Assembly (NCBI RefSeq): GCF_000003605.2 | Contig: NW_003147771.1 | Span: forward strand, 184,421 to 241,620 | Source of the DNA: Saccoglossus kowalevskii | Lineage: Eukaryota; Hemichordata; Enteropneusta; Harrimaniidae | Length of the DNA stretch: 57,200 bases | Direction: 5' to 3' | Shown: one piece after another, positions 968 through 56,259 of the stretch | How the letters are laid out: each line of letters begins with the position of its first letter | How positions within the stretch are numbered: position 1 is the stretch's first letter | Made by a program: the position numbers and the translations under genes | Notes under the pieces: model-generated | The model's input: the letters and a program-made list of their open reading frames with translations, nothing else | Database searches by the model: none | What the model was told of the DNA's origin: nothing

Positions 968-1126
968 AATTACATCGGACTCCAACCGTATCACACGTAT
1001 CACGTTCCACGTTTACGCAGTCTCCTGCATGGTTACTGCTAGTTAGACAGTCAATCGTCACAATGATGGCACTTGAATCTTGGTTCTTGTCGTCATTCAA
1101 CAGAGACATGGCACCAGTAGTGATAC
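968..1126 (-). CDS. Gene E exon: C-terminal half of SRCR
   Basis: Acceptor AG at 1127-1128 and donor GTAAGT after 968; phase 1 at both ends. Encodes GITTGAMSL and on to DTVGVRCN with the terminal SRCR cysteines. Confidence 0.8.
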
Positions 1127-22351: not shown

Positions 22352-23087
22352 TTAACATATGTCTGCAGATTCATAAACAACATTGTCAACAAATCCTTCA
22401 CAATTTAGGTCTGGTATCTCTTCATAATCATGCCGTAGGGGGCGGTTAGGTTGGGCATACTCTGATGTTGGGATGTCAGTTGCATTAGCAAAATCTGTCG
22501 CCTGGGGGTGCACTTCCTGCAAGTTATCCAGATTGTCGTCAGTTGACGTTTCACCTTCGAGTGATGGCCCTTCAAGGACGTAATATTTGGGGTTCCCGGT
22601 CGTCTCAATGTCTCCCGCCGAATCATGTTGTTCGCAATCAGTGGGAGAATTTTTTTCCAGCACGTAATACGGTGGTTCTCGGGGTGATTCGTGATTCCCC
22701 GGCGTGTCCGACTTGTCTAAGACGCCCTCTTGTGTTTGTATTGTGCAATCAATACTGCCAAAAGAAGAAGTTTCTAGAACAAAATATTTTGGTTCTTGTT
22801 GTTTCGATATCGATACTTCTGTAAAATTCTGGTTAATTTGAGGCGTATTCCACTCATCACGACTCTGTCGATATTCCTCGTCTTCACCGTATGGGGGCGG
22901 GCCAACTTCGTCATATGTCCGGTTGTGATTTACTTCTTCAGTGATGATTTCTGGTATTTCTGCATACTGCACTTGATCTACTGGAGGTTGGGGATCTTCA
23001 TTCGTGTATTTCACGGTGACGTCACAATTAGTTCTTCTGAATATCCAGGAATATGCTTTTCGCGAAGTGTATTGCTTGGTACCACTT
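22352..23087 (-). CDS. Gene B exon 9: cytoplasmic tail with ITIM-like and PxYxVLE motifs
   Basis: The tail starts RSGTKQYTSRK and has 244 residues plus a TAA stop. Motifs: DQVQYAEI (22955-22972 for VQYAEI, fitting [VILS]xYxx[ILV]), RTYDEVGPPPYGEDEEY, PKYFVLE (22772-22792), PPYYVLE (22655-22675), PKYYVLE (22571-22591), SEYAQPN, HDYEEIPDLN and VVYESA. The three PxYxVLE copies are about 30-40 residues apart. Binding of SH2-domain phosphatases or kinases would be the expected role; this is inference. Confidence 0.87.
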
Positions 23088-26000
23088 CTGCAAATAAATA
23101 AAAAATAACGTGTTTATTTGGAATACGTTTAAAGGGCGGTGGTCGTCGCGCCACGTATGCGCGAGATATGACTACAAACTGAGACGTTACCAAGCTTTAA
23201 TCAGGTACTTTTTAAGTGATTGTTAGGTATCGAAGGAGTCACAGGCGATAATTATGTATGTTGCGACCAGGACAAAACTCGTACTCATTGGAAGAACGCA
23301 TTGGATTGTGGGAAAATCAATATTTATTAAGGCAAATGCCGCACATGCGCGGCGCGACGACTGCCGCCTTTTAAATAATTTAGTTTTTGTTTAGTATGAT
23401 ATATTGTAAAATAAAATAAAGGTCGTTTTAGAAGCGTTAAATTACCTGTGCGTATGAGTAAATCTGGTACGCGTGCGCATTTACGTTTCACATTATTTCA
23501 TCGAACGAATAATGTTAAGTTTGCTGTGAAAAACAAATAATTTAAAACTCGTGTGTGTCTATGGGTTTTGTGCATTTTTAACTTTGTTAAATATTATTTT
23601 TCAAAATTGGATTTAGAAAGCCATAACAGCAAAGAATGATTAAATCCAATTGTTGTCATCAGTACAATATTTATTCGAGATCGGGACGCTGAAATCTACA
23701 CAATAAATGAATGCACAGAGCCCAAAATACATGCACAAGTGTTTATACAATAACTCAATCCACAGTGCTCTTACTAAGATCTATTTTTAAATTAACTTAC
23801 TAATGAATACTCATCCCATTTAAAAAAAAAAAAAAAAAACGCTGTCTCGATAGGGAGCAAGAGAGATCTACGCTCCTCTCCTCTCGCTTCGCTTCGAATC
23901 ACTTCGTCTCGCTTCGCTGCATCACGTTGTTTTGTTTCGCACCGTTTTTTCGTTTTGTTTCCTCATTGTTCCGCCCACTGTGAAGCCAATTTACTCATAC
24001 GTGGGCGAATATGCGTATGAATACAACTACACATTATACATTAGTTTATGACATCTATCCGTCATCTACTTGTCCATTTAGCCGCACATCTAGATAATTT
24101 ACATGTCAAATTTCTGGTCGAGAAAATAGCACTAAACTTGTATATACCTGTTTCTATGGATACACAGGACGCCAATTGTCACGAGTATAATGGTGATCAT
24201 TACAGGTATACCGATAGCAATAATGGCGACCATAACACCTGCAAATAACAAATACAATAACATTGGAAATTACGATCAGAATATGCAAGGCGAATTACAA
24301 ATACTTCTATAGTACATGAATATTGCATAATTGTATGATTTCACTTCAGAAGAAAACCTCATACAAAAACGAATGTGAAAATACATGTAGTTTTCGACTA
24401 TTAGCTCAACAAATCCGACTAAATAAATTTGAACTGAATATGTCTATTGTTGCGTTGTTTACTTGGCAGCAACGTACTATATTCAATAGACCGAATACAA
24501 GTTGATTATTCTTAAAAACAGATGTAGTCTATAAAAGCGTGTTAGAACGTTACACAATTGTTTACATAAATCCACGCATGAAAAGTCGGCAATTCCAAGA
24601 ATGAGATTAATGTACATATAGCGAATTAACCCTACGATAACGACTTAAAATAGATTATTCATGGACATAATAATTCCATGTTGCTAGAAAACACTGTTCT
24701 TTCCGTTTTCGACATATTGGAATTCGTTTGTTTTTATGGAGGGAAATATGTATTTTTACCAAGTAAAATTGTAAAATATTTATTAAAGTTATTGTTAATG
24801 ATGCAATATGGACGAGAAATTGAAATTTTAATCACAGTCGTTTGATATTACATGCTATAGAGGAGATTGTAATGTGATTTATTAGAGTCTAAAAGCATAA
24901 CTCTTGTAACGCACTAAATAATATTCGTTCAGTGAAACAACAAAACACGCTATTACAGTTTGTTATTATTATACGTACAGGCAAAATCAATGTAAATTCA
25001 TTCAGCTGCTTTCAGTCAAGACAAATGAAAAGCAAAAATATCGATAATAACAAAGTTTTAACTGTTTTGTTTTAATAATCACGTGTAATCATAAGAATTA
25101 TTATTGGTGTGCATACGAAATACATTTCGTTATGAAATATTCTCAATATATTTATTTTCAAAATTAGTTGTTTTCAGTTGTGTTTTTTCAAGGAAAAAAG
25201 AATTTCAAAATGTTGAAAATGTAAACATACCATGTGACATATTGCTACCAGTAGTGGTATCAGATATTAATAATTTACTTGTACTATTAGCAGGTCTGCT
25301 AGTTATATCAGATACAGTGATCAGCTCAGTCCTGTCTTCATGTGTTGACGTTGAAACCACTTCTAAGATCAACAGATACAAGAAACAGTGAATTCACTGG
25401 CATTTGCAAAACGTTTAAGCTATCATGTCCATCATTCATCTATCAGTGATTCAGACATATTTAATTGAATAGTGTGTATATTATTACTAATGCAGCAAAC
25501 CTTGGCAGCTGTCAACTCGTGGCACCTACATATCGAATATATTTACGTAGTCATGCTTGTGGTTTTCGAGAAGATTATCTCACCCTGTGTCACTGTGTCG
25601 GATTTGGAAGTTGCAATGGTAGTGGTTGTCTCTATTTATAACCGACGAGGAGCTACACATTATTATTGATTTTGTCTCCTCATAATATATAGATGTTTTT
25701 TTAAAAATAAGTTCTTCTCTTTTGTTGACACACATAGGTACTCTTTGTACAAACGGCTTAATTATAACCTTAAATGTTTGAGCGTTTATATGTAATTCCA
25801 AACATATTTGAATAATAATTTTATAATACATGTTTAACAAGGCACATTAAGATAATATCATTATACAATATACCTTGACATTTGTCCTGTATCGAGTCCA
25901 CCGGCATCCATTCACCATCCTCTGCACATATGAACTGATCGGTCACTACACTGTCACCACATAGTTGTGTTATATTCACCACATCACCTTCATAGTAGAC

Positions 26001-29000
26001 ATCATGTTGTGGGAGTACTTCTCCTACGTCAGATGCATTGCATTTAGACACAGCTGTAGGAAGACATAAAGACAAGATGATTTCATGCCAAACATCACGA
26101 ACATCGAGTTGACCCCAACGTATATTGAAACACTTTCTACCTTCTACGGCATTGGATCACGAAATCTGAAATGTCATATTCACCAACAATGTACACAATG
26201 TAATGATGTTGCTGAAGACATGAATTATATATCTTGACTTAACAGTTTGGAAGACAGAAGTCTATGGCGGATCTCAAAGTCGCCATATCCAGTGCAAGCT
26301 CTGGCATATCGAATAAGCAACATATGCAAGAAAAAGAGTGATATTACTACCAAAATAGGGAAAATTGATATTGGTAACATTGCTTTTGTCATACTGTCTA
26401 GTAGGAAGGGTACTCTTAAAGTCAAATTTAAGAAGGACATCAATGTATGAGTCAGAAGAACTTTATTCTGTGCTTTTTTATTTTCAGTTCAGGTGGATAT
26501 ATCATAGAAATTATTCATGCAAAAAATGTTGGTAGATAGTACATCAATAAATCTGAAGGCGAAATTGTATGATGTTGCCTTCCTGTGTATTTTTACAACA
26601 AGCAGCCTATCGGCTGAGATAGCTCCGCTGTTAGCAATGCACATTTCAATTAAAGAACTGAAGACATCATTAGAAAATGAACAATATGAATAGTATCAAA
26701 GCAATCGGACTTACAGTTTTTAACAAGAAGTCGAAAATATCACTTTTTACCAAAAATTACAAAAATATTCACCAAAATAAATAGAGAATTGAAGATATCA
26801 TCACAAAACAAACAAATCTGAGAGAGGTCCACATGTAGTACCTATATATGTAATATCAAAGCAATCGGACTTACAGTTTTCAACAAGAAGTTGAAAATAT
26901 CACTTTTTACCAAAAATNNNNNNNNNNNNNNNNNNNNNNNNNNNNNNNNNNNNNNNNNNNNNNNNNNAAAATGAACAAATCTGAGAAAGGTCTACATGTA
27001 GTATCTATATATGTAATATCAAAGCAATTGAACTATTGGTTTTTAACAAGAAGTCGAAAATATCACTTTTTACGAAAAATTACAAAAATATTTACCAAAA
27101 TTAGAGAATTGAAAATATCATCACAAAATGAACAAATCTGAGAGAGGTCCACATGTAGTACCTATATATGTAATATCAAAGCAATCGGACTTGCGGTTTT
27201 TAACAAGAAGTCGAAAATATCACTTTTTACCAAAAATGACAAAAATATTCACCAAAATTAGAGAATTGAAAATATCATCACAAAATGAATAAATCTGAGA
27301 GAGGTCCACATGTAGTACCTATATATGTAATATCAAAGCAATAGGACTTGTGGTTTTTAACAAGAAGTTGAAAATATCACTTTTTACCAAAAATGACAAA
27401 AATATTCACCAAAATTAGAGAATTGAAGATATCATCACGAAATAAACAAATCTGAGAGAGGTCCACATGTAGTACCTATATATGTAGTATCAAATCAATT
27501 GGACTTGCGTCTTTTAACAAGAAGTCGAAAATATCACTTTTTACCAAAAATGACAAAAATATTCACCAAAATTAGAGAATTGAAGATATCAACATGAAAT
27601 GAACAAACCTAAGAGAGGTCTACCCAAGGTACATATACACCAAGTATCAAAGCATTCAGTCTTGTAGTTTTCAAGAAGAAGTCGAAAAAGTAAAACATTG
27701 ACACGGACGACGGACGACGGACGACGACGACGGACGACGACGGACAATCACTCATATGATAAGCTCCGCTCGACAAAGTCGACAGCGGAGCTAAAAAAAA
27801 AAGGTTCTAAAGAAATATTGTTTATAAATACCTCTCACTCCTAATATTTTTCACAATTTAATGCGAACAGCTAATGATTATAACTATACCCAATTTGAGT
27901 CATCCGGAGCCCCACGTATATACAAATGTTCTGACGTACCTTTGAATTGTATAACAAATCCGTTACTTGTATCGTATTCATTACTAGAGCCAGCCCATTC
28001 ATTAACGTATAAACGGTTTTGAAGCGTAACAGCGATTTCTTCTGACAATGAGAACCATTCATTGAAGTAGAGTACAGTTATTGTAGTTGGTGTTATAACT
28101 ATGCTATCTAAAATTTCTAAAACATTTTTATATGGTATCAGATTAATTTTTAGAAATGTTAATTTCACAGCGTTTCCACGTGACACTGTTACTGTCCATT
28201 CACATTTCACATTGTCATCGTAACCGCCAGGGAATCCGGGAGACACAATGTAACCTTCATCTGATTTATAATGACCTCCACATTTACCCATCCATGCTGT
28301 AAAATATATACAAGATTGTTCTTATAAAATAATGACTAAAGATACAAAAGCTGGAACTAAACAGACCGTCAAATTTACTTCACGTTTTGTTTTTTTACAT
28401 TAGATGACACAGGAAACAAATTTCCATGAAGCGATTTAAAAAAAAACAACGACATATTTTACTTACTAGAATATACGGATACAGCCTGATTATCTCCACC
28501 ACACACGTGATCCTTATCACCCATACATGAACTTTGACATTCCATATTAGGTAGTAATGTAAGATCATTTACATAGTCGTCTATTCTACAAATACATTCA
28601 TTTCCTCTCGTCAGACCAGCATATTGATAGTGACGGCAGAGCTTTATACATTCTTGAATATTAACCCAGCAATCACTGTCATTCGATAGATAGTTGGTGC
28701 AATGTTCTCTAGTGAAAATATCAGTATCTGGTGCCAAGCATATTGAATAGTGACATCTTATTATGTACTCGTCTTCTTCAAATAAATTTGAATCATAACA
28801 ACCAACATATCCGGGAACTGAAATGCAGAATAAATACAATAATGGTTACATAAACGTTTTGTAGAACAGTGAATATAACTAAACACCAAGCAAATGCCAG
28901 ACAAGTTTACTTCTCATCAAGTGAGAAATTGAATTAAATAATGGTTATAGTGTAGGGAAAACATTGAATGATGACATCATATTGGAGCTCGTCATCTTCA

Positions 29001-32000
29001 ATGAAATCTGATTCATAACAAGCGACGTATCCAGACACTGAAAGGACTTAAGTGGACGAGTCATACCAGCTTGACTGTCGCTTGAATTGTCATTGTATTA
29101 TAAGATAGCAGTAAAAGTTAAATGTTAAAAACGTTAAATGTAATATTTCACTTACCAAAACTAATACACCAAATTTTAAATTCGATATATTTAGTAAAAT
29201 AAACTGAATAAATGCTGTAGTTTATACTAAGTATAAAAAAGTGAAACAATTCTCACATTTCTGACTTGTTTACTCATTAGAACATTCACTGGGATGTACA
29301 TACATTGATTTGACAAACATATAAAATGCACTGGCTTATGCTCTTATTATATCATAAGTTTCGACCCTATAACATATAATGTAATCTGTCGGACTTTGTC
29401 AGCTACAGGCTCTGTCGCACTGGTTAGTTTATGCATATACCCTACGGTCGACATATATATATATATATATATATATATTGTGTCATTTCATATTGCAACA
29501 TTAACGACTGTCATAATTGGCACATATATGTGGATATGTGAACACAATAGCAAGTCTCATTTTCGCTTCTACCACTGCAAGAATACATCCAAATACATTT
29601 GTATATGAACCCATCTCCAAAGCTAGTAATTGCGACGAATATTTGTGATTTGCGAATTAAAAATGTCGCAATGCATCTTTCATTTAATTATAGTGCTACC
29701 TACAGTTGCATCTCACACCAACGATGTTGTTTCCATGGTTACAGTTTGCTTCATCTAGCATCAACGTATAAGAACAACTAAGAAGACTACTTTCATTTCC
29801 TTGACAGTGAAACTTGTATTGCAAGAATGACAACGATGTTTCATTAGGTGCATGAGGTATCGCCCAATAGACAGCGTTCATTGCACCAGTAGGGAATCCT
29901 GCAAAGATAAACAATATGCCAGATAAGAAAACAAAACAAGAAAATATTTTTAGTACACACTGTCAGAATATAACCATAGATCGAATCAGATATGTAATAT
30001 ATGGATATAATATTCATTGAACGAGTAAGGTGATATTCGATAAAACAAACTATAAAACAAATGATTATTACAAAATTATTACAAAGGTTTAATAAATCTT
30101 ATACTGTAGAGTAACGAATGTTCTGTTTATCACATATAACCGTTTCACAGCCTGTAAAGACTAACAAATAACATGGTGATCCTATTTTATATACAATATA
30201 CAAGACATCGTAGAACGCCCTGGCTTGTTTGTTAATGGTTACTGTTAATGTACTTTATTGTGATTAAGAAATATATTTTACGGTTTCGGAGATGTATAAC
30301 TAATTTTGGAGCCAACTCAAACTTTGACCATTTCACAAAAATAGCCATTAGACATCATGGGCAAAGCATGGTGTGCGGAGAATTTGAAATTGACCTGACA
30401 TCTGAAACTACCTAAAATATTTGAATTAATATAATTCCTAATAACAAAGAAAATGTTATCGGATTATTTTAATTAATATAATTGATCGGCAATCGCCCCC
30501 TCTAAAAAAATGTTGGGAGGGCGTCGCCCCCGAAAATCCAACTGAATCCCTTTGTGTCGGCAAAATTTGCCTTCCAAAATGCAGGAAGTAGCGTTTCAGA
30601 ATTGTTAAGGGGGTTCATGCCCGGACCCCCTAGTAATGTCGCAGACCCCCCCCCCATGCAAAATTTTGTGCCGCCGCCTCTGATTATAGAGATACAGACT
30701 ATAGTTATTACTCTGAACTGTCATAATGTATAGGATAAATATACACATGAGCGTATATCATAAGAGCGGGGCTATTGGGTTGTGAATTTAATATAGTGCA
30801 TATCTACCAAGTTGTCTGCAAGCCACATCTGCATTCTGCATATACCAGGCATCATCACAAAGTGTGTTCCAACTCCCATTAACGGAAAGCTGTAGCTGTC
30901 CTTCGAAAGGATTATCACCACCGACAAGTTGAAGTTTATGTTCACGGTCTAGCGCTGTAGAATGAAGAAAGATAAAAAAGTCGTCAAGGGTTCAGTCCAG
31001 CAGATAAAAACACAAAAAGAACAACATTGTACGCTTTTAGATAGAAACATATAATTTGGTACACATGTTCTACTCGCGGAGATCATTTTCTAATATAGTG
31101 TAGATAGGTTAGCGCCCTCTAACACTAGCTCATTTTATTCTTTCTAGACCTATCCTTATTGTGCACTTTGGGGTATAAGTTTGAATTTTGGTACACATGT
31201 TCTACTCGAGGTGGAGACACTTTTCTGATATAGTGCGACTATTTATCGCCCTCTAGCGACCACTAGCGCCCTCTAGACTTATAGATATTGTGCAATTTGG
31301 GTTACAATGTAAGGACTGTTGTACACATAATCTACATTCGATGAGCCGATTAATATGTCACATAGTGCCAACCTACTAGCTCCTTATATCGGTTACTTGT
31401 GCTATCTATTTTTGAGGGTAGAAGAATGAACTTTGACACGCATGCTATACTCAAATAGGTAATCATTCTGACATAGTGCCAAATGATTAGCGCCCACTAG
31501 CGACCAATATAACGCCTTGAATTATTGTCTGGTTTAATTCTGCTTGCTATAATGTATTATTTATGATCATAACTCAAAACCAATGCAATAAGACACGGTA
31601 CAAAATACACGACTTTACATATTGTGATAATGTCACTTCATGTTCATGTAATAAATACAGTAATATATTCTAATGATATACTTTAAAACATATTGAAATA
31701 GCTACATATCATTTTAGCGAATTTGACTCCATGCATGAATTAACTGAATCTTAATTTAGCTAAAATGCCATCAATCTCATTGTGAGAATAAACTTTATTT
31801 AAAATTAGCGACATCTTGAATTAGCGAAATTACAGGTTAGCTACATTGGCTAAAATGACATGCTAGCTAAAAAAACGTGTTTTACAATATTTATGTATAG
31901 ATACACATATATTGTTCTATCTCAGAAAGAACAAACAATTCTGATTATCATTAGTACACCATGGCGATGTTGCTCTGTGTAGTATAATATAATATAATAC

Positions 32001-34543
32001 AGTGTAATGAACAACAGAACTGCCATCAACAATGTGACCGTGTAGTAGTGACGTAATCATCGAATAAATAATTATAACAGTAATTATAACATCGTGATTA
32101 ATTCAAACAGTATTGAAAATGGTGGTGTCAGCAATTCATCAGGTCAAATGATGTTATAGTGTGGTCGATGAATATAATTTTCCTAGAATACACGAATCGA
32201 GGGCGCTATTCGATTAGCATTATATGATATGTTAATTGGTTCTTCGAGTAGATTATGTGCGCCAAATTTCATGCTCTTTCCCATAGTGTAAGATGTTGAT
32301 TGATTGCCACTGTATGATATATTAATTCGTTCTTCGAGTAGGATATGTGCGCCAAATTTCATGCTTCTTTCCCATGATGTTGAAGTTGACTATTCAGGAA
32401 AAGTATAGAGGGCGCTAGTGACCACTAGAGGGCGCTAGTCGATTTGCACTGTATGATATATATTAATTGGTTCTTCGAGTAGGATGTGTGCGCCAAATTT
32501 CATGCTTCTTTCCCATGATGTTGATGTTGACTATTCGGGAAAAGAATAAAGGGCGCTTGTGGCCACTAGAGGACGCTAATCGATTGGCATTACTAGTATA
32601 TCATATAATAATCTGCTAATCATGTAGAATATGTTGAGCCAAATCTGCTGGTCTATACTCATCTACTAATCGATCACTTGTGGGTTTGATATAATACCAA
32701 GCGTTTGCAGGTAAACGTTTGACTCACAGTACTATGAGCTGAAAATGTGTCGTCGCTTTGTACAAACGCGGGTAAACACGGTCGTTGACGGCGCGCATCA
32801 TACATGGACCTCGAACGAGTCTGCATCGTTACAGACGTTTTCAAACACGATATCACGCACGCACCTTTTATAAGTTAACATGAGCTGATTACTTATTCGG
32901 TTTAAAGCGCGGGGGTCGTCGCGCTGCGCATGTTCGACATTTGTGTTGATAAATATTGATTTTCCCACAATCCTATGCGCTCTTCAAATGAAAATCACAA
33001 GTATGAGGTTTGACCTGGGCGCGACTTGCACTGATTACCGCCGGTGACTCCTTCGATATCTTCCAATCACGTGAAAATTACCCAATTAAAGCTTTGAAAC
33101 GTGTCAGTTCGTACTCGGTGATCTGCGCAACAGTTGAAGTCGCCATCTTTGTTTAAATGAGACCCATATATCGCGCACATGCGCAGCGCGACGACTACCG
33201 TTTCATTGAACTTGTATTCCATCTGTCTGTTCGTGTTTCTCGCAATTACATATTGTATATATACATTCCAGGTCACGTGTTCAAACGATATCCCATGGTT
33301 CAATACTTGTTTGGTAAATATAGCAGCCAGACACATTGTATGTTCTTTACTAGCCAAATCACCTTTTCAAAGGAGGTGACCTCTATGACCTATTGTCAGT
33401 GTCATTCCTTGCATTTGTATTCTATATTCATAGAAGGAAGTTGACTCAACCAAAATGTCTCTCCATCGTCGACCTAGCTACATCGTCTACCAGTCTACGG
33501 GAGTTTAACTACTACAATCAGAATATGTGTTATGGTGTTGCCAGAGAGTTTGATTAGCAAGCATATATAGTTATATGTCATCCAAATAAATGATTTTATT
33601 TAATTTTCATTTAATTTAACACGTCATAAAATTAATAAATTTAAACACTTAGATAACGACTTTCCGTTTTCGACAGAATTCTTTTGTTTTTTATGCTAAA
33701 AATACAGTACTAGTATTTTACCAACTTGAAGTAAATCATATTTATTAAAGTTATTGTTCTTACACGAGTTGTTGAACACACTACTCTGTAATATAGTTTG
33801 TTATATAAGAAAATGAAAAAAATGAAAATCATATAGACAATATAGACAAGTTAGCTTTATTCTGCAATATTATTGTGCATCGGTAATTTGAAAATTATCG
33901 TCGGTGTGCATAAGAAATACTATTCGTTATGAATATATTCTTAATATATTTCGAAATTTTCTCGTCAAAATCAGTTGTTTTTTGAAATGGTATTTAGAAA
34001 ACAGAAAATGTGTATTGTAGTGTTTGTTTTCTTATAACTGAATAGTAATTACGTGTTATAATGTTGTTTTAATGTAATACGTAAACTGTAATTATGTATT
34101 GATAACTGTAATGTCATCTCACTACCAAAGTAAACACAAGAAGCATCGTATATGGCTTACTTGTAACAACACGCAACATTTTCATCGGCACTAATACCAG
34201 ATATTGTATATAAACACGGTGTGTGACCTCAATGTACCCTTGGAACGTAACCATGACATTACGGTACAAATCCAACCTAATACTGAATTTATGGCTAATC
34301 CTTTGAGAAAACTACTCCATTGCAATTCATTGGCATTTCATATGATATGTAAATTTCACCAAATTTATTTCTGTAGTTAAAATCGTTCACCCCGTAGACT
34401 GGCAGTTCTAGTCCTTGTTGCAAACAACTATCCATAACTGTTTACCCATTCTTGACCTCACCTGAGAATACTGGGATCACGACAGTAAGAAACAACCACA
34501 GCAACAAACACACACCATTGGCGAGCCTCCTACCGTCACCCAT
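22352..34543 (-). CDS. Receptor gene B: SRCR-WSC-CUB-CCP transmembrane protein, 756 aa
   Basis: Nine coding exons on the minus strand: 34462..34543, 30808..30954, 29704..29898, 28467..28817, 27940..28296, 25874..26053, 25231..25362, 24148..24238 and 22352..23087. Joined they give 2271 nt, open to TAA. Order: signal peptide 1-27, SRCR (two exons), WSC, CUB, CCP/sushi, Ser/Thr stalk, one membrane segment, and a 245-residue tail with an ITIM-like motif and three PxYxVLE repeats. All extracellular introns are phase 1. Gene C is a close paralogue in the opposite direction, with exon lengths equal or nearly equal (195, 180 and 91 nt identical). Introns hold a pearl-like element (26620-27793) and a repeat field (31050-32650). 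The domain order suggests a surface receptor of innate-recognition or Kremen type; the ligand is unknown. All exons are intact, so I judge it functional. Confidence 0.87.
23129..23374. mobile_element. TTAA-flanked MITE, family 1b
   Basis: Ends ttaaagggcggtggtcgtcg and cgactgccgccttttaa. It shares 'gagacgttaccaagctttaa' with the copy at 13307. It lies in the last intron of gene B, just 5' of the tail exon. Confidence 0.75.
23821..23960. repeat. Poly(A) run and CTTCG-rich low-complexity tract
   Basis: A run of about 19 A is followed by repeated ctcgcttcgctt units. It lies in the last intron of gene B and has no coding content. Confidence 0.6.
24148..24238 (-). CDS. Gene B exon 8: transmembrane segment
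   Basis: Reads GVMVAIIAIGIPVMITIILV and on to TIGVLCIHRNR. 91 nt, phase 1 in and phase 2 out, the same length as gene C's exon. Confidence 0.9.
24239..25230. other. Gene B intron between TM and stalk exons
   Basis: AT-rich; no exon or distinct repeat recognised. A stretch around 24680-25170 resembles 33650-34000 (shared 'ccgttttcgaca', 'gtttgttat', 'ggtgtgcat', 'cgttatgaa'), which suggests an old segmental copy. Confidence 0.4.
25231..25362 (-). CDS. Gene B exon 7: Ser/Thr stalk
   Basis: Reads EVVSTSTHEDRTELITVSDI and on to SDTTTGSNMSH, a hydroxyl-rich juxtamembrane stalk with NxS/T sites. Phase 1 at both ends; donor GTATGT. Confidence 0.8.
25874..26053 (-). CDS. Gene B exon 6: CCP/sushi domain
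   Basis: Reads AVSKCNASDVGEVLPQHDVY, then YEGDVVNITQLCGD, FICAEDGEWMP and DKCQ. Four cysteines, a Y-x-x-G-D motif and a G-x-W before the last cysteine match a short CCP module. 180 nt, the same as in gene C. Confidence 0.82.
26620..27793. mobile_element. Pearl/Helentron-like non-autonomous element with 157-bp tandem core
   Basis: Bounded by a 12-bp inverted repeat, tagctccgctgt (26620-26631) and acagcggagcta (27782-27793). The core is about six copies of a 157-bp unit; the phrase aggtccacatgtagtacc recurs at 27145, 27302 and 27459. A GACGACGG microsatellite (27700-27745) and a terminal hairpin aagctccgctcgac...gtcgacagcggagct follow. This order is that of 'pearl' elements described in bivalves and of HINE/Helentron elements. 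It sits in the intron between gene B's CUB and CCP exons. Confidence 0.75.
26918..26967. other. Assembly gap (50 N)
   Basis: Fifty N within the 157-bp repeat array. Spacing of units across the gap (163 rather than 157) shows the gap is close to its true size, or hides whole units. Confidence 0.95.
27940..28296 (-). CDS. Gene B exon 5: CUB domain
   Basis: Reads GKCGGHYKSDEGYIVSPGFP, then GGYDDNVKCEWTVTV, and ends DTSNGFVIQFKG. Only the first cysteine pair is present. 357 nt, donor GTACGT, phase 1. Confidence 0.92.
28467..28817 (-). CDS. Gene B exon 4: WSC domain
   Basis: Reads PGYVGCYDSNLFEEDEY and on to CIKLCRHYQYAGLTRGNECI, CRIDDYVN, CQSSCMGDKDHVCGGDN, VSVYS. 351 nt. It is intact here but frameshifted in gene C. 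A partial copy of its 5' end lies upstream at 28961-29037. Confidence 0.92.
28961..29037 (-). pseudogene. Partial duplicate of gene B WSC exon
   Basis: After an intact acceptor TCCTTTCAG the minus strand reads VSGYVACYESDFIEDDELQY, close to the start of the real exon (VPGYVGCYDSNLFEEDEY). Homology then stops. It lies in the intron just 5' of the real WSC exon, so it is a leftover of an exon duplication. Confidence 0.8.
29452..29478. repeat. (TA)n microsatellite
   Basis: About 13 TA units; upstream of the SRCR-C exon on the other strand sense of gene B. Confidence 0.9.
29704..29898 (-). CDS. Gene B exon 3: C-terminal half of SRCR
   Basis: Reads GFPTGAMNAVYWAIPHAPNE and on to FHCQGNESSLLSC and CNHGNNIVGVRCN, the classical C-x-G-x-E-x-x-L-x-x-C and G-V-x-C signatures. 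195 nt, donor GTAGGT. Confidence 0.9.
29899..30807. other. Gene B intron inside SRCR
   Basis: A stretch at 30480-30690, with 'gggagggcgtcgcccccgaa' and a run of C before 'atgcaaaattttgtgccgcc', looks like an interspersed repeat. The part next to the SRCR-N exon (30690-30807) is clearly homologous to the start of the corresponding gene C intron (39425-39545), which shows the paralogues are recent. Confidence 0.55.
30808..30954 (-). CDS. Gene B exon 2: N-terminal half of SRCR
   Basis: Reads ALDREHKLQLVGGDNPFEGQ and on to SWNTLCDDAWYMQNADVACR, QLG. Acceptor TTCTACAG, donor GTAGAT, phase 1 at both ends. Confidence 0.9.
31050..32650. repeat. Field of GCGCCCTCTA repeats in both orientations
   Basis: Left half (31050-31520): repeated 'gtacacatgttctactcgag' and 'tagcgccctctag'. 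Right half (32200-32640): the complementary arrangement, with 'ggttcttcgagtag', 'gtgcgccaaatttcatgct' three times and 'gagggcgctagt'. Together they form a diverged inverted pair around about 31.85 kb. No protein is encoded. It lies in the first intron of gene B. Confidence 0.6.
32902..33205. mobile_element. TTAA-flanked MITE, family 1b, inverted copy
   Basis: Starts ttaaagcgcgggggtcgtcg. The interior is the reverse complement of the 13307 copy ('cgccatctttgttt', 'aattaaagctttg'). The far end, cgacgactaccgtttcattg, has decayed. It lies in the first intron of gene B. Confidence 0.7.
34462..34543 (-). CDS. Gene B exon 1: signal peptide
   Basis: ATG at 34541-34543; reads MGDGRRLANGVCLLLWLFLT and on to VVIPVFS. 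Donor GTGAGG, phase 1. A damaged copy lies at 37943-38027. Confidence 0.85.
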
Positions 34544-37040: not shown

Positions 37041-38027
37041 AGTTGCATCTAGCTCCAACGATCATGTCGTTACAAGGAGTTTTATCAAACAGAAGTGTGA
37101 TATATAACAACTGAGGAGACTACGTTGGTTTTCTTGACAGCGAAACTTTAACGACATCTGATCAGGTGCACTAGATATTATCTAAACACTCACTGTGTCA
37201 GTAGGAATTCCTACAAACAACAAATAAAATGCCTTGTAATTTACAGATATTCTTAGCTTGGAGTAAAAATTCATGCATACTGATTACCTAATTTACATAT
37301 CAATAATCCAACGCTCAGCTTTTCCGCTTATATTATGAAAAGCTACAATGAATTTTGGTTGGTATATAAAGTCTTTGGAACGATCGGCAGAACGAGCTAC
37401 AATTGGATTTAAACCTTACAATTAATGACTTAATTTTCTTAATAATATTCAAGTTTTAAAAATGTCAGTATGTTTTAATAATCACTTTAAATGAACTTAT
37501 ATATATGGTTACGTAGATATATTTAACAGAATTGACCATTTACCGTTAACTGCGAGATCCCGTGCTATGTATGAATTGAATATAAAAACAGGACAAACAA
37601 AGGTCATAGCGTAGTAGTGACGTCAACACATCTCGTGAGATTCGACAAACGCGAAAGTAGTATTTTCACGCTTAATAATGTGTCATACACATTTGATACA
37701 TGTCAATTTCGATGAAGTGAATCTCAAGGCCATATTTTCTTCTGAAAAATTGGCATTTCGACACCGAACTATAAAAAAGGAAATTTAAGTTCAAAATAAA
37801 ATCGTTCGATATTTGTGGCAGAGGTTCGGTCCGCGCCTTTCAAGCATTACGCGAAATCTCGCAGTGAACGGGAAATTACTATTTAAAACGGTCCGCCCTG
37901 TAGTCTACCCATTCACAATCGTTTACCCATTCTTGTCCTTATCCAAGAATACTGGGATCACGACAGACAGAAACAAACAAACACAGCAACACAATGATAC
38001 AACATTGGTGAGCCTACCACCCTCCAT
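37041..38027 (-). pseudogene. Receptor pseudogene P (signal exon and SRCR-C remnant)
   Basis: 37943..38027 is a copy of gene B's signal exon, starting MEGGRLTNVV and reaching VVIPVFL, but the splice donor GT has become AT (ggataagg against ggtgagg). 37041..37210 is a copy of the SRCR-C exon with acceptor and donor GTAAGT still visible. It begins GIPTDTVSV then hits a stop, later frames are broken, and its length is 170 instead of 195 nt. No SRCR-N, WSC or later exon is recognisable. It is a dead fragment of a third B-type copy. Confidence 0.8.
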
Positions 38028-38583
38028 GACGTATAGCACAGCGACAAGTAGGTAGTTTTTTTTACAGAAAGTAAAGTCTTTTCTCGCGGTAATCCGGCTG
38101 ACGCAAGCCATGTTATTTGTGTAAATTGTTTTACTGAACTCAAACCGGCCTGCTCTATATAGGTAGCTGGGTTCCAGTGCCATAATTGTATACATGGAAG
38201 TAACTGTTAAAATAACCCCGTGACCATGGAAACATGTGGACGTATGGTGATTGTACTAACTTTGCTAGGAGGAAATGAAATTGACCCGATTGAGTCGTCA
38301 CACATTTCAGGTATACATAGCTGAACATTTATGCCTGGCACTTATGATTTGCGTAATAATAGAAACACTCCATAGGTCGTTCTAACCTTACGTTTGTCTC
38401 ACGTGATTTCCTTATTGTGATTACTAGTATTATAGGACTGCAGTTGTTAGTATCTAATATCACGCGATATTACGAAATATACGAGATATTACGAGATGAA
38501 GGATCATTGCAAACGTATCATCAAGCTAGTGTATGTGTCTGTCTTGGCCATACATGTGACTGGATTGGTATATACATTACCAA
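37943..38583. promoter_or_regulatory. Divergent promoter unit 2 (gene C side intact)
   Basis: The second copy of the unit at 34462-35150. Here the minus-strand first exon (P) has lost its donor while the plus-strand first exon of gene C keeps ATG and donor. Shared landmarks are the CACGTG-containing block at 38400-38419 and the tatcacgcgatat block at 38458-38470, 77 to 96 and 26 to 38 bases before the gene C start. Confidence 0.65.
38496..38583 (+). CDS. Gene C exon 1: signal peptide
   Basis: Reads MKDHCKRIIKLVYVSVLAIH and on to VTGLVYTLP; donor GTAAGT, phase 1. The sequence is unrelated to the gene B signal peptide, because it derives from the opposite side of the duplicated promoter unit. 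Confidence 0.75.
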
Positions 38584-41500
38584 GTAAGTATATTATAAGA
38601 ACAATGCGTTTATTGAGGTATGGTTCTAGCGTACGGTAGACGTAAACAGGCGTCATTGAGAGCAAAGAAACCAGTAAACAGGAAAACTTTGGAAAGAGTA
38701 TTTTTCTAGTAAATTCTGACAGATGATGCTGAACGAAAACTGTTTGCTACTGTTCGATTGTTAGCTGCTTCAAAGTCTACCTACCTTTTCACCACCAGAC
38801 TTTCTCGCCCAAATTATTCTGCTTTTTTCTTATAATCTTTAATATTTCTGGAAATGAACCCTAATTTTGGAGGCAACAGACAACATTTGAGTAAATTTTC
38901 AGGTTCTATTAAAAAAAAATCGCTATTTCTGTCCCAATCTTCTGAAAGAAAGTGCAGACAAAAAAAATGACTACTTTGTGAATTTGTGATGAGGAAACTG
39001 GTGGTGAAAAGGCTGAGAAGAATGACTCAAAAAGTTATAAATAGATTTTCATGAAATTGCTAGGAGGGGTCTTCCTTGACACGGGAAATATTCGATTAGA
39101 TTTTTGGTAGAGATGTAGTTCTGGTTGCGATAGAAACGACGATTTCGGGAATGATTTTTCATTTATAAGTTATGAATGAATTGGGAAATGAAATGAAATG
39201 AAATGCACTCGTACAATAAATTGTTGAAAACCAGATACTATCCGATAATTTGTAGACTTGTGCTAATTAATCTTTCCCTCTTTACCGTGAACATAAACCT
39301 CGACTTGTCGGTGGTGATAATCCTTTCGAAGGACAGCTACAGCTTTCTGTTAATGGTAGTTGGAACACACTTTGTGATAATGACTGGAATATGCAGAATG
39401 CAGATGTGGCTTGCAGGCAACTAGGTAGATATGCACTATATTAATTTCACAACCCAATACCCCAGCTCTTATATACGCTCGTATGTACATTTATCCTATA
39501 CATTATGGCAGTTCAAAGTAATAACTATAATTTGTATCTCCATAATATGTGATAACAATGGCAATGGTAGTTGGCACATACTATGTGACAACGACTGAAA
39601 TATGCAGAACTCAGATGTGACTCGTAGACAACTTGGTAGACATGCACTGTATTTACCCAATAGACCATTTTATGATGCATGCACACTTGTATACACATGT
39701 ATTACAAATATGTTTTGATTCAATCTGATATTCTGACAGTACGTGCTTGGAAACATGATTCTGTTATTTTGTTTTATAGTTAAAATTGAATCTGAGAAGT
39801 ATTTCATCTGCCATGTGTTTAATCTTTGTAGGTTTGCCTACTGGTGCAATGAACGCAATCCATTGGCCGATACCTCGTGCACCTAATGAAACATCGTTGT
39901 CATTCCTGACATACAAGTTTCACTGTCAGGGAAATGAAAGTAGTCTTCTTAGTTGTTCTAATACGTTGATGCTAGATGAAGCAAGCTGTAACCATGGAAA
40001 CAACGTCGTTGGAGTGAGATGCAACCGTCGGTAGCAATGTTAAAATATTGATGATGCATTGCAACATTTTACTTTTCTCAAATGTATTTGTTAATTGAAC
40101 ATATTCGTACTAGCTTTGCTGATAGGCCATATAACAATGTTGTATTTGATTGGTATGATTGCAATGACAAGCAAAATCCTCGTAAAATATTAAAATGCTC
40201 CATTGCATTTTCATATCCACAACAGAGTCTATAGATGATCATATGTTGAGGTCGAGATAATGTTAGCCCTAATGTGCCAGAATAACTTTAGTCAGTTGCC
40301 TGTACAATATCTAACGAATACCAACTCAAAAATGTATACAATTTTAATTAAATGACATTAAATTAAATTAAACGTTAAACTTCAGCATGTTAAACAAACA
40401 CGTCTTAATCAATGTATTTTAAAAATATACAAAATTTAAAATAAAAATACCACATACAGAGTTTGATGTTCTAGTTACGGCAAGTAATTAAATATGTTGG
40501 TTTGGAACATAAACAAAAACAAAACAGAAACATTACTACTCTCTCAAACTAAACCAGCAATGTGACCTTTGGGCACTGAATGTAAATTGTCTACTTCATC
40601 TTTTTTCGTAATTCATTGATTTCAGTTCCCGGATATGTTGGTTGTTATGATTCAAATTTATTTGAAGAAGACGAGTACATAATAAGATGTCACCATTCAA
40701 TATGCTTAGCACCAGATACTGATATTTCCACTAGAGAACATTGCACCAACTATCTATCGAATAGCAGTGATTGCTGGGTTAATATTCAAGAATGTATAAA
40801 GCTCTGCCGTCACTATCGATATGCTGGTCTGACGAGAGGAAACGAATGTATTTGTAAAATAGACGACTATGTGACTATCTTACATTACTACCTAATATGG
40901 AATGTCAAAGTTCATGTATGGGTGACAAGGATCACGTGTGTGGTGGCGGTACCTCGGCTATATCTTTATATTCTAGTAAGAAAAACATGCAATTTTCTGA
41001 AAATCTCTCAATGATAATCTGTTTCAAATTAAAATCTTTCGAAACCATAACGTGAAGTTAAATTGAACAGTCTGTGTAGAGCATATTCAATATGATATTA
41101 ATAAAACATCACATATATTTCGCAGCATCGTTGGGTAAATGTGGATGTCGTTATAAATCAGATGAAGGTTACATCGTCTCTCCTGGATTCCCTGGTAGTT
41201 ATGATGACAATATAGAATGTGAATGGACAGTAACGGTGTCACGTGGAAAAGCTGTCAAATTAACATTTTTTAAAATGAATCTGTTACCATATAAAAGCGT
41301 CTTAGATATTCTGGATAACACAGTTACAACAACATCTAGAATAACTGTACTCGATTTCAATGAATGGTTCTCATTATCAGAGGAAATCAGTGTAACGCTT
41401 CTAAGGAGCTTTTACAAATGGTTTGGCTCTGGAAATGAAGACGATACCAGTAACGGATTTGTTATACAATTCCAAGGTACGTCAGATAAATATGTATATA

Positions 41501-44080
41501 TTAATATATTAATAATTCATAGAACAAAACAATATCAATACATTCCAAATTGACCAGTATTAGCTAATATATGATGCAGTTATTTGCAAAATGAAAAAGT
41601 TGTTATAAATATGTGGATATTCTCGACGAGCTCTTGGCATTGTTGAATGTTGTTTATATGTAATATAACACAAAATCTATTGTTATATATATGATATATT
41701 AATGTGTTAAAACTGATGATTCCTCTCAATGAATCAAGTCGTATATATATATATATTATTGGATTGCAAGATAGCCACAATTATATCATCGGTCTTGCTG
41801 TACTGAAAATACTTATAGTCACGATTATTATGAGTGACTATAGATACTAAATCCGTGTCATCTCGTATTCCTACAGCTGTTTCTAAATGCAATGCATCTA
41901 GCGTAAAAGAAGTGCTCCCTCAACGTGTGATTTTGACATTTTAGCTCTCATGACTCAATGCCATAAAAAATGTTTCAATATTCTTTGGGGTCAAAATGGA
42001 TCATAGTCATGTTCATCTATATGTTTGTGATCTGTGGCCTGAATTCATCTTGTCATATTATCTATTAACAGCTGTTTCTAAATGTAATGCATCTGGTGAG
42101 AAAGAAGTACTCCCACAACGTGATATCTACTATGAAGGTGATATGGTGAATATGACACAACTATGTGGTGACAGTGTAGTGACCAATCAGTTCATATGTA
42201 CAGAGAATGGTGAATGGATGGTGATGGAGACGATACAAAACAAATGTAGAGGTATAATATATAATCATATTATCATAATATGCTTTGTTATATTTCTTAT
42301 AAGCTGTTATTTGAATATGTTTGGGATTGCGAATATATACAGAAAAGTTGTTCGAACAAACCCGATCTGTTTATTTCAATAACTTTTAAATATTACGGGA
42401 ATACTACATCAATAATAATAATAATAATAATAATAATAACTCTTTCTGTTCTGTCAATCATACATACGTACATAGAAGAAACATTATTTCCTAGTCATGA
42501 CCAGAGATGAATTACATGCTTTCTAATTCTCAGTAACAAAATGAGATCATCTTTTACAAAAACCACTAACATGATATTTTTAATTAATATTTGGTATGCA
42601 GGCGTCTTGAGTGGACAACACTCAGGTGATTTTATTCATATGTAAATATTACCAATAAAATGATTGATTAGTATGTAACATATTTTCTGTCACTTGTGCA
42701 TAGAAGCAACCACTAGCACTGTGAATTTCATTGACTGGGAATTGATGTCACAATCTTCCATAAGTATGACCACTGAAGAAAACTACGACTTTGAAATACA
42801 TACCCCCAAATCAAGAACAATAACAAAAAGTGAGATTATCTTCTCAAAGCCCATTAATTGTAATATCTGATTCAATTCAATTCAATTCAATTCAATTCAA
42901 TTCAATTCAATTCAATTAGTATAGAATTTTTTTTAAAGATTACAATACAATTTAAATGACACAAAAGAATTGTAATTTCAGATTTAATTGTTGTGTTTGT
43001 TGGCGGAGTTGTAATTATTGTTGTGGTTGCAACACTGTTCACGATGATTATTTACCGCAATACAAAAAAACGGTAAGATTCTTTCCTGGTCTGTAGTAAC
43101 GTTACTGTACAAAGGGATGGCGATAGTTGGAAAATTGGTGGTGCGGGGTGATGGTGTTTAGTTTGGTTGCATATATTAATAGGCAATGAGAGACGGACGG
43201 GTTACCAGTGGTGCTTTTGATCACATCAGTATATGTTGCTTACTTATTTGAACGTTCATATCATTATCTCAAGCGACTTGTTCAAACAAAACGAGACCCA
43301 ATTTAATTTATTAAAAACCAAACGAACTTATATTGCTATTTTTCAGTACGTCAGATAGTTATTCAGTCATAGCGTCGATGGAGATACGATACGCATGCTT
43401 ACTTAAATTAGCATGTTCAAATTAGCAAATTCAACTTTATGAAATATTTCGGTGTATGCAAACCATGACTAGACAATAGGTGATATTGTCCCACCAACCT
43501 TCATTTTTGATTACCCTGTTTTGCGTTGTATCAATATTTTAGGTGGTATATATATAATATACACCAGTAATAATGACATCATTAGAGTTAATGCAATTAT
43601 TAAGAAAATAAACATTGTGTATGGATTTTTTTCACGAACAGGAGAATCAAGAAAAACGTCCCAAACGTCGGCAATGCTGCTTCAATGACTGTGCGATGTG
43701 CTGATACAGATCGCAGAGGATTAGGACCCCAAACCGAGCAGGAAATTCAAGATTTTGAACAGGTAGCATTGCACGAAACCGGCGAACAAAATGCGGTGTC
43801 GGAATTTCAACGAACCAACACGTTGGATGATTATGTAGTCGTTGACCTACCTGAAAATATAGCCTTTGAAGCAGGACCAAGAAGTAATTACGTCATCAAT
43901 GAACATTCCATCGTAAGTAATACACCAGAAAATGGGGCCACTAACCATGAATACTATACTATAAATATGAATGAAGAAGGTCATGTTATTGGTGGCGAGG
44001 TGGTGTCTAATTATGCTTCCCTGGACCAATCAACGAAAGAATTATCACATGTCTATACATCATTAAATTCTGAGTTTTAA
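38496..44080 (+). CDS. Receptor gene C: B paralogue with ITAM-like tail, damaged SRCR/WSC exons
   Basis: Plus-strand exons: 38496..38583 (signal), 39332..39424 (SRCR-N, see its entry), 39832..40026 (SRCR-C), 40626..40975 (WSC), 41126..41476 (CUB), 42072..42251 (CCP), 42704..42829 (stalk), 42982..43072 (TM) and 43642..44080 (tail). The WSC exon has lost one base (near 40871-40880), giving 350 nt against 351 in B and a TAG at 41213-41215 in the CUB exon if spliced straight through. The SRCR-N exon lacks its normal acceptor and SRCR-C has a weak donor (GTCGGT). All other exons are intact. Because every domain exon is phase 1-1, skipping SRCR and WSC leaves signal-CUB-CCP-stalk-TM-tail open (1275 nt, 424 aa). 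It may be a decaying gene, a shortened receptor, or carry an assembly error at the deletion. Confidence 0.75.
39332..39424 (+). CDS. Gene C exon 2: SRCR N-half lacking its normal acceptor
   Basis: Homology to gene B begins at about 39286 (REHKPRLVGGDNPFEG) and ends at donor GTAGAT after 39424. The 17 or so bases that hold the acceptor in B (ctacagcgctaga) are absent, and TAA lies in frame just upstream. The next in-phase AG (39330-39331, cgaag) would start the exon inside the domain, at RQLQLSVNGSWN, losing about 18 residues. Confidence 0.5.
   Translation, partial: DSYSFLLMVVGTHFVIMTGICRMQMWLAGN
39549..39640 (+). pseudogene. Partial duplicate of gene C SRCR-N exon
   Basis: Reads NGSWHILCDND, then TGA where the real exon has TGG, then NMQNSDVTRRQLG and a copy of the donor and intron start. 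It lies 125 bases 3' of the real exon. It is a tandem exon copy now dead. Confidence 0.85.
39832..40026 (+). CDS. Gene C exon 3: SRCR C-half, weak donor
   Basis: Reads GLPTGAMNAIHWPIPRAPNE and on to FHCQGNESSLLSC and VVGVRCN. 195 nt as in B, but the donor is GTCGGT against GTAGGT in B. The open frame itself is intact. Confidence 0.75.
40626..40975 (+). pseudogene. Gene C exon 4: WSC exon with 1-nt deletion
   Basis: Reads VPGYVGCYDSNLFEEDEY and on to CIKLCRHYRYAGLTRGNECI, CKIDDYV, then shifts frame: gactatgtgactatctt against gactatgtaaatgatctt in gene B. Downstream bases still match B closely, so the deletion is recent. Acceptor and donor (GTAAG) remain. Confidence 0.88.
41126..41476 (+). CDS. 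Gene C exon 5: CUB domain
   Basis: Reads LGKCGCRYKSDEGYIVSPGF, then PGSYDDNIECEWTVTV, and ends DTSNGFVIQFQG. Intact, phase 1 at both ends, donor GTACGT. Confidence 0.9.
41877..41943 (+). pseudogene. Partial duplicate of gene C CCP exon
   Basis: After acceptor tcctacag it reads AVSKCNASSVKEVLPQRV, close to the start of the real CCP exon 200 bases downstream, then loses homology and reaches a stop. It is another abandoned exon copy. Confidence 0.85.
42072..42251 (+). CDS. Gene C exon 6: CCP/sushi domain
   Basis: Reads AVSKCNASGEKEVLPQRDIY, then YEGDMVNMTQLCGD, FICTENGEWMV and NKCRG. Four cysteines; 180 nt, phase 1. Confidence 0.82.
42412..42440. repeat. (AAT)n microsatellite
   Basis: About ten AAT units in the gene C intron after the CCP exon. 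Confidence 0.95.
42704..42829 (+). CDS. Gene C exon 7: stalk
   Basis: Reads EATTSTVNFIDWELMSQSSI and on to TPKSRTITK. Acceptor TGCATAG, donor GTGAGA, phase 1 at both ends. It is strongly diverged from B's stalk. Confidence 0.7.
42871..42916. repeat. (TTCAA)n microsatellite
   Basis: Nine TTCAA units in the intron before gene C's transmembrane exon. Confidence 0.97.
42982..43072 (+). CDS. Gene C exon 8: transmembrane segment
   Basis: Reads NLIVVFVGGVVIIVVVATLF and on to TMIIYRNTKKR: a single span with a basic stop-transfer sequence. It has no charged residue inside the span. Donor GTAAGA, phase 2 out. Confidence 0.9.
43642..44080 (+). CDS. Gene C exon 9: cytoplasmic tail with ITAM-spaced motif
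   Basis: 145 residues then TAA. Motifs: DDYVVVDL, SNYVINEH, HEYYTINMNEE, and at the end YASLDQSTKELSHVYTSL (44012-44065), two YxxL boxes separated by ten residues, which fits the ITAM rule YxxL/I-x(6-12)-YxxL/I. No PxYxVLE motif is present. It is almost unrelated to the tail of B despite near-identical outer domains. The frame is intact. Confidence 0.82.
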
Positions 44081-52884: not shown

Positions 52885-52897
52885 TTTCAAATGCTTC

Positions 52898-55945: not shown

Positions 55946-56259
55946 GTAACAAATACCTAAGCTAAACTGATAAAAGTTATAATAAACCAAATTGGCATCA
56001 GAGATTTTAAAGCAGTAAGACACATGTGGATTTATCTTTATTATTGGGGAAATTCCAGCATCATAAACAGAAACTTGCTCATTTGATTTATTTTCAGTGA
56101 AATCTCATTTCATACACACAATTTTGAAATGGGAATTTCTTAACATGATTACCGTAGACATGATTATTCCAAAGATATTACCAAAACATGAAAACACGAG
56201 ATGCAATGATTTATCTTCGCATGCAAACATATAGATATTCTTTGCAATTCTCAATGCAA

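Follow-up and report, generated by a model that had tools for sequence, protein, structure and literature searches.

We analysed a 57,200-nucleotide stretch of the genome of the hemichordate Saccoglossus kowalevskii (RefSeq assembly GCF_000003605.2, contig NW_003147771.1; C3803:184421-241620; hereafter the window), which carries two receptor-like genes, B on the minus strand and C on the plus strand. An earlier note on this DNA had described them as a pair with near-identical outer domains and opposite-looking signalling tails. Below we describe the two genes and their relatives, A, D and E at the same locus and F, G, H and I elsewhere, found in searches that covered 572 Mb in 4,830 contigs. 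Positions refer to the window unless a locus (L) or contig (C) number is given, and feature coordinates are collected in Table 1.

Organization of genes B and C

Genes B and C lie head to head, as the earlier note had claimed, and all eight exon positions of gene C are homologous to those of gene B. On the minus strand, gene B reads SRCR1, SRCR2, WSC, CUB, CCP, linker, transmembrane (TM), tail and stop, in eight exons extending from 30954 (SRCR1) to the stop at 22352. Every junction from SRCR1 onward is GT-AG, and all are phase 1 except the TM-to-tail junction, which is phase 2. The SRCR (72.1 bits; cut-off 26.1), CUB (39.7 bits) and WSC (35.3 bits) domains of gene B all score above their Pfam cut-offs. 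These three are the sole families above cut-off, with no match to kringle, EMI or EGF in either gene B or gene A. From SRCR1 through the stop, gene B is an intact family member. The first residue of its modelled protein, like that of the gene C CUB-to-tail protein, is a placeholder or derived from the junction. A 157-base tandem array (26694-27620) occupies part of the intron between the gene B CUB and CCP exons.

The domain names proposed earlier hold for SRCR, WSC and CUB, but not in the same way for CCP. Pfam Sushi gave no match for the gene B CCP exon or within the gene C CUB-to-tail protein, and a Protein Data Bank (PDB) sequence search with the two CCP sequences gave no sushi match, only weak matches to BRCA1 and to a SusD-type protein. 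The relative I carries a canonical Sushi exon (48.1 bits) at the equivalent place, to which the gene B exon bears a weak likeness (40% over 35 residues; BLAST E 7e-6 in a single comparison). We call the exon CCP-like because of its four cysteines, its position and this weak match.

In gene C, the CUB, CCP, linker, TM and tail exons are intact and splice in a single frame to a stop at 44080, and its CUB passes the Pfam cut-off. Its 5' half is damaged, as had been claimed: the SRCR1 exon lacks a splice acceptor, and the WSC exon is one base shorter than that of gene B and is frameshifted. The SRCR1 exon nevertheless passes the SRCR cut-off in the genome scan (45.9 bits); the gene C WSC exon is absent among the at least 43 WSC matches listed. 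A scan of 42200-44100 for hydrophobic exons running from phase 1 to phase 2 returned exactly one, at the expected gene C TM.

The length of the gene C tail frame was rejected as proof of a coding exon, since shuffled windows yield equally long frames (longest open run per window, n = 100: median 131, maximum 198 codons). The case for the tail therefore lies in its phase, its splice site and its codon score, which was 23.7 compared with a maximum of 3.7 in 4,000 overlapping intron and intergenic draws. The linker (P = 0.043) and TM (P = 0.30) exons are too short to be judged in this way. Between B and C we also observed two signal-peptide-like exon copies on the minus strand (37911-38050 and 34430-34543), one of them degenerate. 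Together with an SRCR relic at 37107-37214, these copies suggest a dead family gene between the two.

Divergence between genes B and C

Exon DNA identity between B and C is high across the ectodomain (SRCR1 92.3%, SRCR2 91.8%, WSC 94.3%, CUB 84.9%, CCP 86.7%) and falls in the linker (38.9%), TM (40.7%) and tail (43.4%) to values no better than those of unrelated introns. The statement that the tails are almost unrelated was thus upheld. For the outer domains, the shared DNA (85-94%) is confirmed, but "near-identical" is too strong for protein, where identity is 72.9-75% in CUB, 73.3% in CCP, 84.8% in SRCR2 and 91.8% in the 5' part of WSC. The two CUB domains are mutual closest relatives, the next nearest being that of gene A at 28%.

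Of the introns, the five lying between SRCR1 and the linker show 50-66% identity overall, with local patches of 72-89%, and the last two show 45-52% with no local match. Identity drops at the edges of the WSC and CUB exons. In the WSC region of gene B, 254 nt (28571-28824) match gene C at 97% identity and form a possible conversion tract. In the first part of WSC only 2 of ~47 synonymous sites differ, as against 19 of ~74 in CUB (Fisher P = 0.0025); against the synonymous sites of all other ectodomain exons, P = 0.014. This very low divergence suggests gene conversion between B and C in WSC. Gene conversion homogenises the ectodomains of a genuine paired-receptor system, Siglec-11/16 (PMC5701461).

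A wider family of receptor genes

The pair does not stand alone: genes A and D inside the window, and gene E just outside it on the upstream side, are relatives of B and C. Gene A passes Pfam for SRCR (61.2 bits; cut-off 26.1), WSC and CUB. Its exon plan and phases are common to gene B and are followed by the 3' half of gene C. Gene D is represented by SRCR exons only, and the DNA separating it from gene E yielded no match to WSC or CUB. The gene E tail, taken from an open frame, reads YLVLD, YHVLE, YFTLE, YYGLE and YHTLE before an N gap, and its CUB-linker junction was read as phase 2 by eye only.

The genome scans returned at least 51 SRCR and at least 43 WSC exon matches, both lower bounds. 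At seven loci (E, A, B, F, G, H and I) an SRCR match is accompanied by a WSC match on the same strand. On contig C2915, locus F (L027, minus strand) has SRCR, WSC and CUB exons, a Pfam CUB, a TM exon and a tail. Its transmembrane stretch (L027 5854-6367, minus) contains three similar consecutive open frames, only one of which passes the TM-exon scan. Locus H, on the same contig, combines WSC and CUB with a TM exon and a tail; an SRCR match lies just outside the stretch examined. Locus G (L028 and L030, plus strand) is an inverted copy of the F ectodomain, with open exons, 87-91% DNA identity across SRCR-WSC-CUB and a dN/dS ratio against F of 0.41 (bootstrap 0.25-0.76). No TM exon was found in the 12.9 kb downstream of G, whose product is possibly secreted or truncated. 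On contig C598, locus I has Pfam WSC, CUB and Sushi, with an SRCR match ~5 kb upstream.

When these loci were scanned for a phase 1-to-2 TM exon, B, C, A and F each yielded a single match and H yielded two, one nested in the other, whereas G and I (8.1 kb searched in I) yielded none. Phase 2 acceptors able to join TM to tail were found in F and H, three candidates in each. At C2479:48183-50854 (plus) we observed an SRCR match together with a CUB match 40% identical to the gene B CUB, perhaps a further family member. The WSC-rich contigs C3950 and C4732 were rejected as family loci, as three 10-kb stretches held WSC matches without a family SRCR or CUB match; on C4732 (L025), a WSC exon adjoins an exon that looks by eye like a kringle, perhaps a true Kremen-like gene.

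Tyrosine motifs in the tails

We compared six tails (A, B, C, E, F and H). That of E ends at the N gap, and those of F and H are missing a few residues at the start. G and I yielded no tail, and D contributed none. All motifs named in the earlier note are present, namely one VQYAEI and three PxYxVLE (PKYFVLE, PPYYVLE and PKYYVLE) in gene B and YASL-x10-YTSL in gene C. We tested the B and C tails against shuffles, trying ten patterns. Neither the threefold PxYxVLE of gene B nor the two YxSL of gene C was at all common in shuffles, each being reached in 0 of 20,000. A generic immunoreceptor tyrosine-based inhibition motif (ITIM) occurs once in B (P = 0.38) and once in C (P = 0.27), neither above chance. 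A loose immunoreceptor tyrosine-based activation motif (ITAM) is found in gene C at P = 0.011, as one among the ten patterns, and the strict form is absent from its tail; the ITAM fit proposed for C thus applies to its spacing but not to the strict motif.

Three or more YxxL/I/V motifs are present in five of the six tails, and A, E and F carry several at varied spacing. The motif is enriched over shuffles in B (P = 0.0018-0.003), C (P = 0.009-0.013), E (P = 0.0008) and F (P = 0.021). Among 17 adjacent YxxL/I pairs in the six tails, a single one, that of gene C, falls within the ITAM spacing of 6-12. Generic ITIM counts are five in F, one each in B, C and H, and zero in A and E, so that by an ITIM rule F, not B, would be the inhibitory-looking gene. 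The gene B tail combines YxxL motifs with one NPKY and ends in a DNxxY motif, which occurs once in H and five times among the six NxxY of the F tail (L027 4787-5695, minus). No charged residue was seen in the TM helix of B or C; the usual adaptor-coupled activating form is therefore absent.

Thirteen of the 15 tail pairs were compared (A-H and E-H left out), and at uncorrected P values five were alike beyond shuffles: A-B (P = 0.005), A-E (P = 0.008), B-E (P = 0.02), B-F (P = 0.002) and F-H (P = 0.017). The possibility that the gene C tail was borrowed from another gene was rejected, as protein and DNA searches found only the tail itself and no second DNA copy in the genome at the sensitivity of the search. 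This exclusion is weak, because a strict protein search with the B tail also found only itself, missing A and E. An F-type origin for the gene C tail, considered because YxS[LV] is enriched in both C (P = 0.002) and F (0 of 4,000 shuffles), was likewise rejected, the alignment being no better than chance (P = 0.53).

The tails look like quickly changing strings of short tyrosine motifs. Such motifs would be compatible with phosphotyrosine docking of many kinds and by themselves assign no sign. Opposite signs for the tails of B and C are not supported: the generic ITIM occurs once in each, strict ITAM is absent in C, and the relatives share the YxxL/I/V style.

Table 1. Exons and related features of genes A to D (window positions).
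Feature	Position	Strand	Remark
Gene D	968..3444	-	Two SRCR exons, 1 (3444-3301) and 2 (1126-968), and no others; boundaries read from the sequence
Gene A	9283..17712	-	Paralogue without CCP; signal peptide through stop by reading
Gene A signal-peptide exon	17712-17640	-	
Gene A SRCR exon 1	16879-16739	-	
Gene A SRCR exon 2	15123-14950	-	
Gene A WSC exon	12762-12457	-	
Gene A CUB exon	12103-11753	-	
Gene A linker exon	11425-11303	-	
Gene A TM exon	10812-10734	-	
Gene A tail exon	9958-9283	-	
Gene B tail exon	22352..23087	-	244 amino acids + stop: VQYAEI, TYDEV, PKYFVLE, PPYYVLE, PKYYVLE, YEEI, GFVDNVVYES
Gene B TM exon	24148..24238	-	Phase 1 to 2
Gene B linker exon	25231..25362	-	
Gene B CCP/sushi-like exon	25874..26053	-	Four cysteines
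Gene B CUB exon	27940..28296	-	Pfam
Gene B WSC exon	28467..28817	-	Pfam
WSC exon start, truncated copy within gene B	28963..29043	-	
Gene B SRCR exon 2	29704..29898	-	Pfam
Gene B SRCR exon 1	30808..30954	-	Pfam
Gene B signal-peptide exon, candidate only	34462..34543	-	MGDGRRLANGVCLLLWLFLTVVIPVFS; phase 1 donor
SRCR exon 2 relic between B and C	37107..37214	-	Weak (E 0.001); contains stop
Gene C signal-peptide exons, two candidates	38226-38310 and 38496-38583	+	Each with a phase 1 donor; unproven
Gene C SRCR exon 1 homologue	39282..39424	+	Damaged; no splice acceptor
SRCR1 exon, second copy in gene C	39563..39653	+	Broken
Gene C SRCR exon 2	39832..40026	+	Open; 85% to B at amino-acid level
Gene C WSC exon	40626..40975	+	Frameshifted
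Gene C CUB exon	41126..41476	+	Intact; Pfam
CCP exon start, truncated copy in gene C	41856..41927	+	
Gene C CCP-like exon	42072..42251	+	Intact
Gene C linker exon	42704..42829	+	
Gene C TM exon	42982..43072	+	Phase 1 to 2
Gene C tail exon	43642..44080	+	145 amino acids + stop: YVVVD, YYTI, SNYASL-x10-YTSL

Surroundings of the locus

Adjoining gene C is an OATP (SLCO) transporter gene (46757-56104, minus), with three open frames above the Pfam OATP cut-off. Downstream of the cluster lie a PI-PLC-X domain gene (L017 4151-5056, plus) and an LDL-receptor class A gene (L018 1106-1996, minus). A 30-base tandem array (14339-14832) is found inside gene A and a 22-base array at 49923-50301. A dispersed repeat family, probably a mobile element, occurs near the receptor genes in direct and inverted orientation (13377-13439, 21810-21872, 23149-23211 and 33074-33198). 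Rfam (at the gathering threshold) and tRNA scans gave no matches.

Separately, the mitochondrial contig (C4830) carries COX1 on the strand opposite ND1 and COX2. Six of nine COX1 ATA codons fall at Ile of at least one of two aligned vertebrate sequences (four of these at Ile of both, and one at Met of one of the two), and the remaining three fall at Leu, Val and Val; ATA therefore looks like Ile. COX1 AAA occurs at a conserved Lys, and TGA reads as Trp. No AGG was seen in ND1, COX1 or COX2, and AGA occurs twice in ND1, where we take it to be Ser from conservation. Such a code suits a hemichordate better than an echinoderm, in which AAA is Asn, or a cnidarian, in which AGA is Arg, although a placement on these grounds is tentative.

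Discussion

From the exon anatomy, copies, motifs and damage described above, we consider it reasonably probable that the locus is one part of a fast-evolving family shaped by birth and death. Its members would be single-pass receptors of the scavenger or engulfment type whose tails serve for phosphotyrosine docking and which work much as Draper/MEGF10 do. The family plan would comprise a signal peptide, SRCR, WSC, CUB, an optional CCP, a linker, TM and a long tail. In such a receptor the ectodomain may bind a microbial or cell-debris ligand, and receptor clustering could let a Src-family kinase phosphorylate the tail tyrosines. The YxxL/I/V and NxxY sites would then recruit SH2 (Src homology 2) or PTB (phosphotyrosine-binding) proteins, such as a Syk-type kinase, an SHP/SHIP phosphatase or a GULP/CED-6-type adaptor, and these could bring about uptake and adjust the response, in the manner of Draper/MEGF10. 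Gene C would have arisen by inverted duplication of a B-like ectodomain, joined to a diverged linker, TM and tail of the same exon plan, and its WSC may have been touched by gene conversion after the duplication. It could now encode a shorter receptor of CUB, CCP, TM and tail, with the damaged exons skipped, or be a gene becoming a pseudogene. From sequence comparison, the difference between the B and C tails seems best explained by rapid tail turnover rather than by a demonstrated sign switch.

Several results weigh against this interpretation. YxxL/I/V motifs are not significantly enriched in the tails of A (P = 0.11) or H (P = 0.40), and F alone shows NxxY enrichment (P = 0.0003, against P = 0.06 for B), leaving the endocytic part weak for the other members. 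The tail pairs A-F (P = 0.19), E-F (P = 0.10) and B-H (P = 0.14) are not alike beyond chance. The gene C tail matches no other (A, P = 0.28; B, P = 0.46; E, P = 0.18; F, P = 0.53; H, P = 0.89), so that its membership of the family is argued from the exon plan alone. The signal-peptide exons of B and C are candidates, none of them proven. Lastly, the B-C ectodomain dN/dS of 0.51 (bootstrap 0.33-0.73; dS 0.18; 399 codons) compares two copies and can neither tell which gene is constrained nor show constraint on C.

A serious though less probable alternative is that gene C is no more than a pseudogene: an inverted duplicate in decay, with its open 3' half left over. The missing SRCR1 acceptor and frameshifted WSC are what such decay would leave, as are the extra broken exon pieces within gene C and the relics nearby, and for another inverted ectodomain copy, G, the stretch downstream yielded no TM exon. 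Against simple decay, the exons from CUB to tail are all intact and in frame, with a tail codon score that is coding-like. The broken exons, moreover, sit between phase 1 junctions and can therefore be skipped.

The earlier note had pointed to a paired-receptor pattern. In a true pair of this kind, B would recruit phosphatases through VQYAEI and YxVLE, C would recruit a Syk-type kinase through YASL-x10-YTSL, and gene conversion would keep both on the same ligand. Part of this survives: the ectodomain is shared, the tails are unrelated, and the low-divergence WSC patch is conversion-like. The ITAM spacing of gene C and its intact CUB-to-tail half are further points in favour, as are invertebrate ITAM/ITIM precedents in Draper with its ITIM splice form, Botryllus FcoR, Hydractinia Alr and amphioxus BbLcLRR. 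We nonetheless judge an activating/inhibitory pair unlikely. Opposite sign is unsupported, given a generic ITIM once per tail at chance level, no strict ITAM in C, and a YxxL/I/V style common to relatives at other spacings, and, because SRCR and WSC are broken in gene C, the ectodomains displayed by the two proteins would differ. Little credence also attaches to a bolder proposal, that an invertebrate independently built paired immune receptors on SRCR-WSC-CUB-CCP ectodomains. Under it, B would be inhibitory and C activating, with its own ITAM and a trimmed ectodomain; conversion would keep the ligand-binding part alike while the tails turn over, and the F/G inverted copy, in which G has no TM exon found, would be a decoy version.

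It is very improbable that faulty base calling or misassembly, in a sequence with gaps, accounts for the damage to gene C or for its inversion: the window contains N runs (550 N) and a one-base frameshift is a typical error, but the introns between the shared exons are too far diverged for C to be a misassembled allele of B, and the missing SRCR1 acceptor is more than a single-base matter.

The family as we read it, with docking tails of rapid turnover, resembles several known receptors in part. Kremen is kringle-WSC-CUB, and the earlier label "Kremen-like" fits the WSC followed by CUB; here, however, SRCR replaces the kringle as first domain, no kringle was found in B or A, and there are an extra CCP and a long tyrosine-rich tail. 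The vertebrate receptors CD5, CD6 and WC1 likewise join an SRCR ectodomain to a long tail with tyrosines, through which signals can be turned up or down, but their ectodomains are SRCR-only, with no WSC or CUB, and they are not known as inverted pairs with unrelated tails. SIRP and PIR are paired receptors whose ectodomains are near copies and whose tails differ, a likeness that extends to Siglec-11/16 and CEACAM. The ectodomains of all four are Ig-type and the signs of their tails are known, whereas any sign given to the tails of B and C would be putative, and C is damaged.

Among invertebrate systems, 253 of 359 sea urchin SRCR genes lie in tandem clusters, and some carry WSC (36), CUB (35) or sushi (38) domains (PMC10855680). 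The sea urchin and sponge SRCR superfamily is thus similar in its gene clusters, and the sea urchin genes in these added domains, but the B/C domain order, inverted pairs and tyrosine tail motifs are not described in the available passages of that source. Draper, MEGF10 and CED-1 are likewise single-pass, and their tails bear NPxY in addition to YxxL or ITAM; in Draper and Megf10 the combination is ITAM plus NPxY. Src-family kinases phosphorylate the tail tyrosines of Draper/MEGF10, Syk-type kinases and PTB adaptors read them, and an ITIM splice form of Draper recruits the phosphatase Corkscrew (PMC8092387, in part). Their ectodomains are EMI/EGF/NIM in contrast to SRCR-WSC-CUB here, and the two Draper tails come from splicing rather than from two genes. 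Since B and A have no EMI or EGF, they are not Draper-class members and at most work like one.

Botryllus FcoR and Hydractinia Alr carry ITIM, hemITAM, ITAM or core YxxI/L/V motifs (PMC12065747, in part). FcoR is similar in its tyrosine motifs, also has a sushi domain, and differs in its Ig domains and allorecognition locus; Alr is also an invertebrate tyrosine-motif receptor, again at an allorecognition locus. ITIM/ITAM use by the amphioxus receptor BbLcLRR has been tested (PMC8211107, in part). With these precedents and Draper, tyrosine-motif pairing in invertebrates is not new. An SRCR-WSC-CUB pair was undescribed in the titles and abstract openings of the papers listed on SRCR receptors (ITIM/ITAM, echinoderm, hemichordate, amphioxus; 15 of 187 in one case), a scope with most subscription journals outside it.

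Some invertebrates have greatly enlarged sets of SRCR receptors, and the literature passages available say little on signalling by their tails. If B and C did prove to be an opposed pair, paired receptors of the vertebrate style would have evolved convergently on ectodomains other than Ig. For the tyrosine-docking family that we favour, one exon plan and common ectodomains are combined with tails that mix YxxL/I/V, YxVLE and DNxxY differently, which makes the grammar of such tails directly testable.

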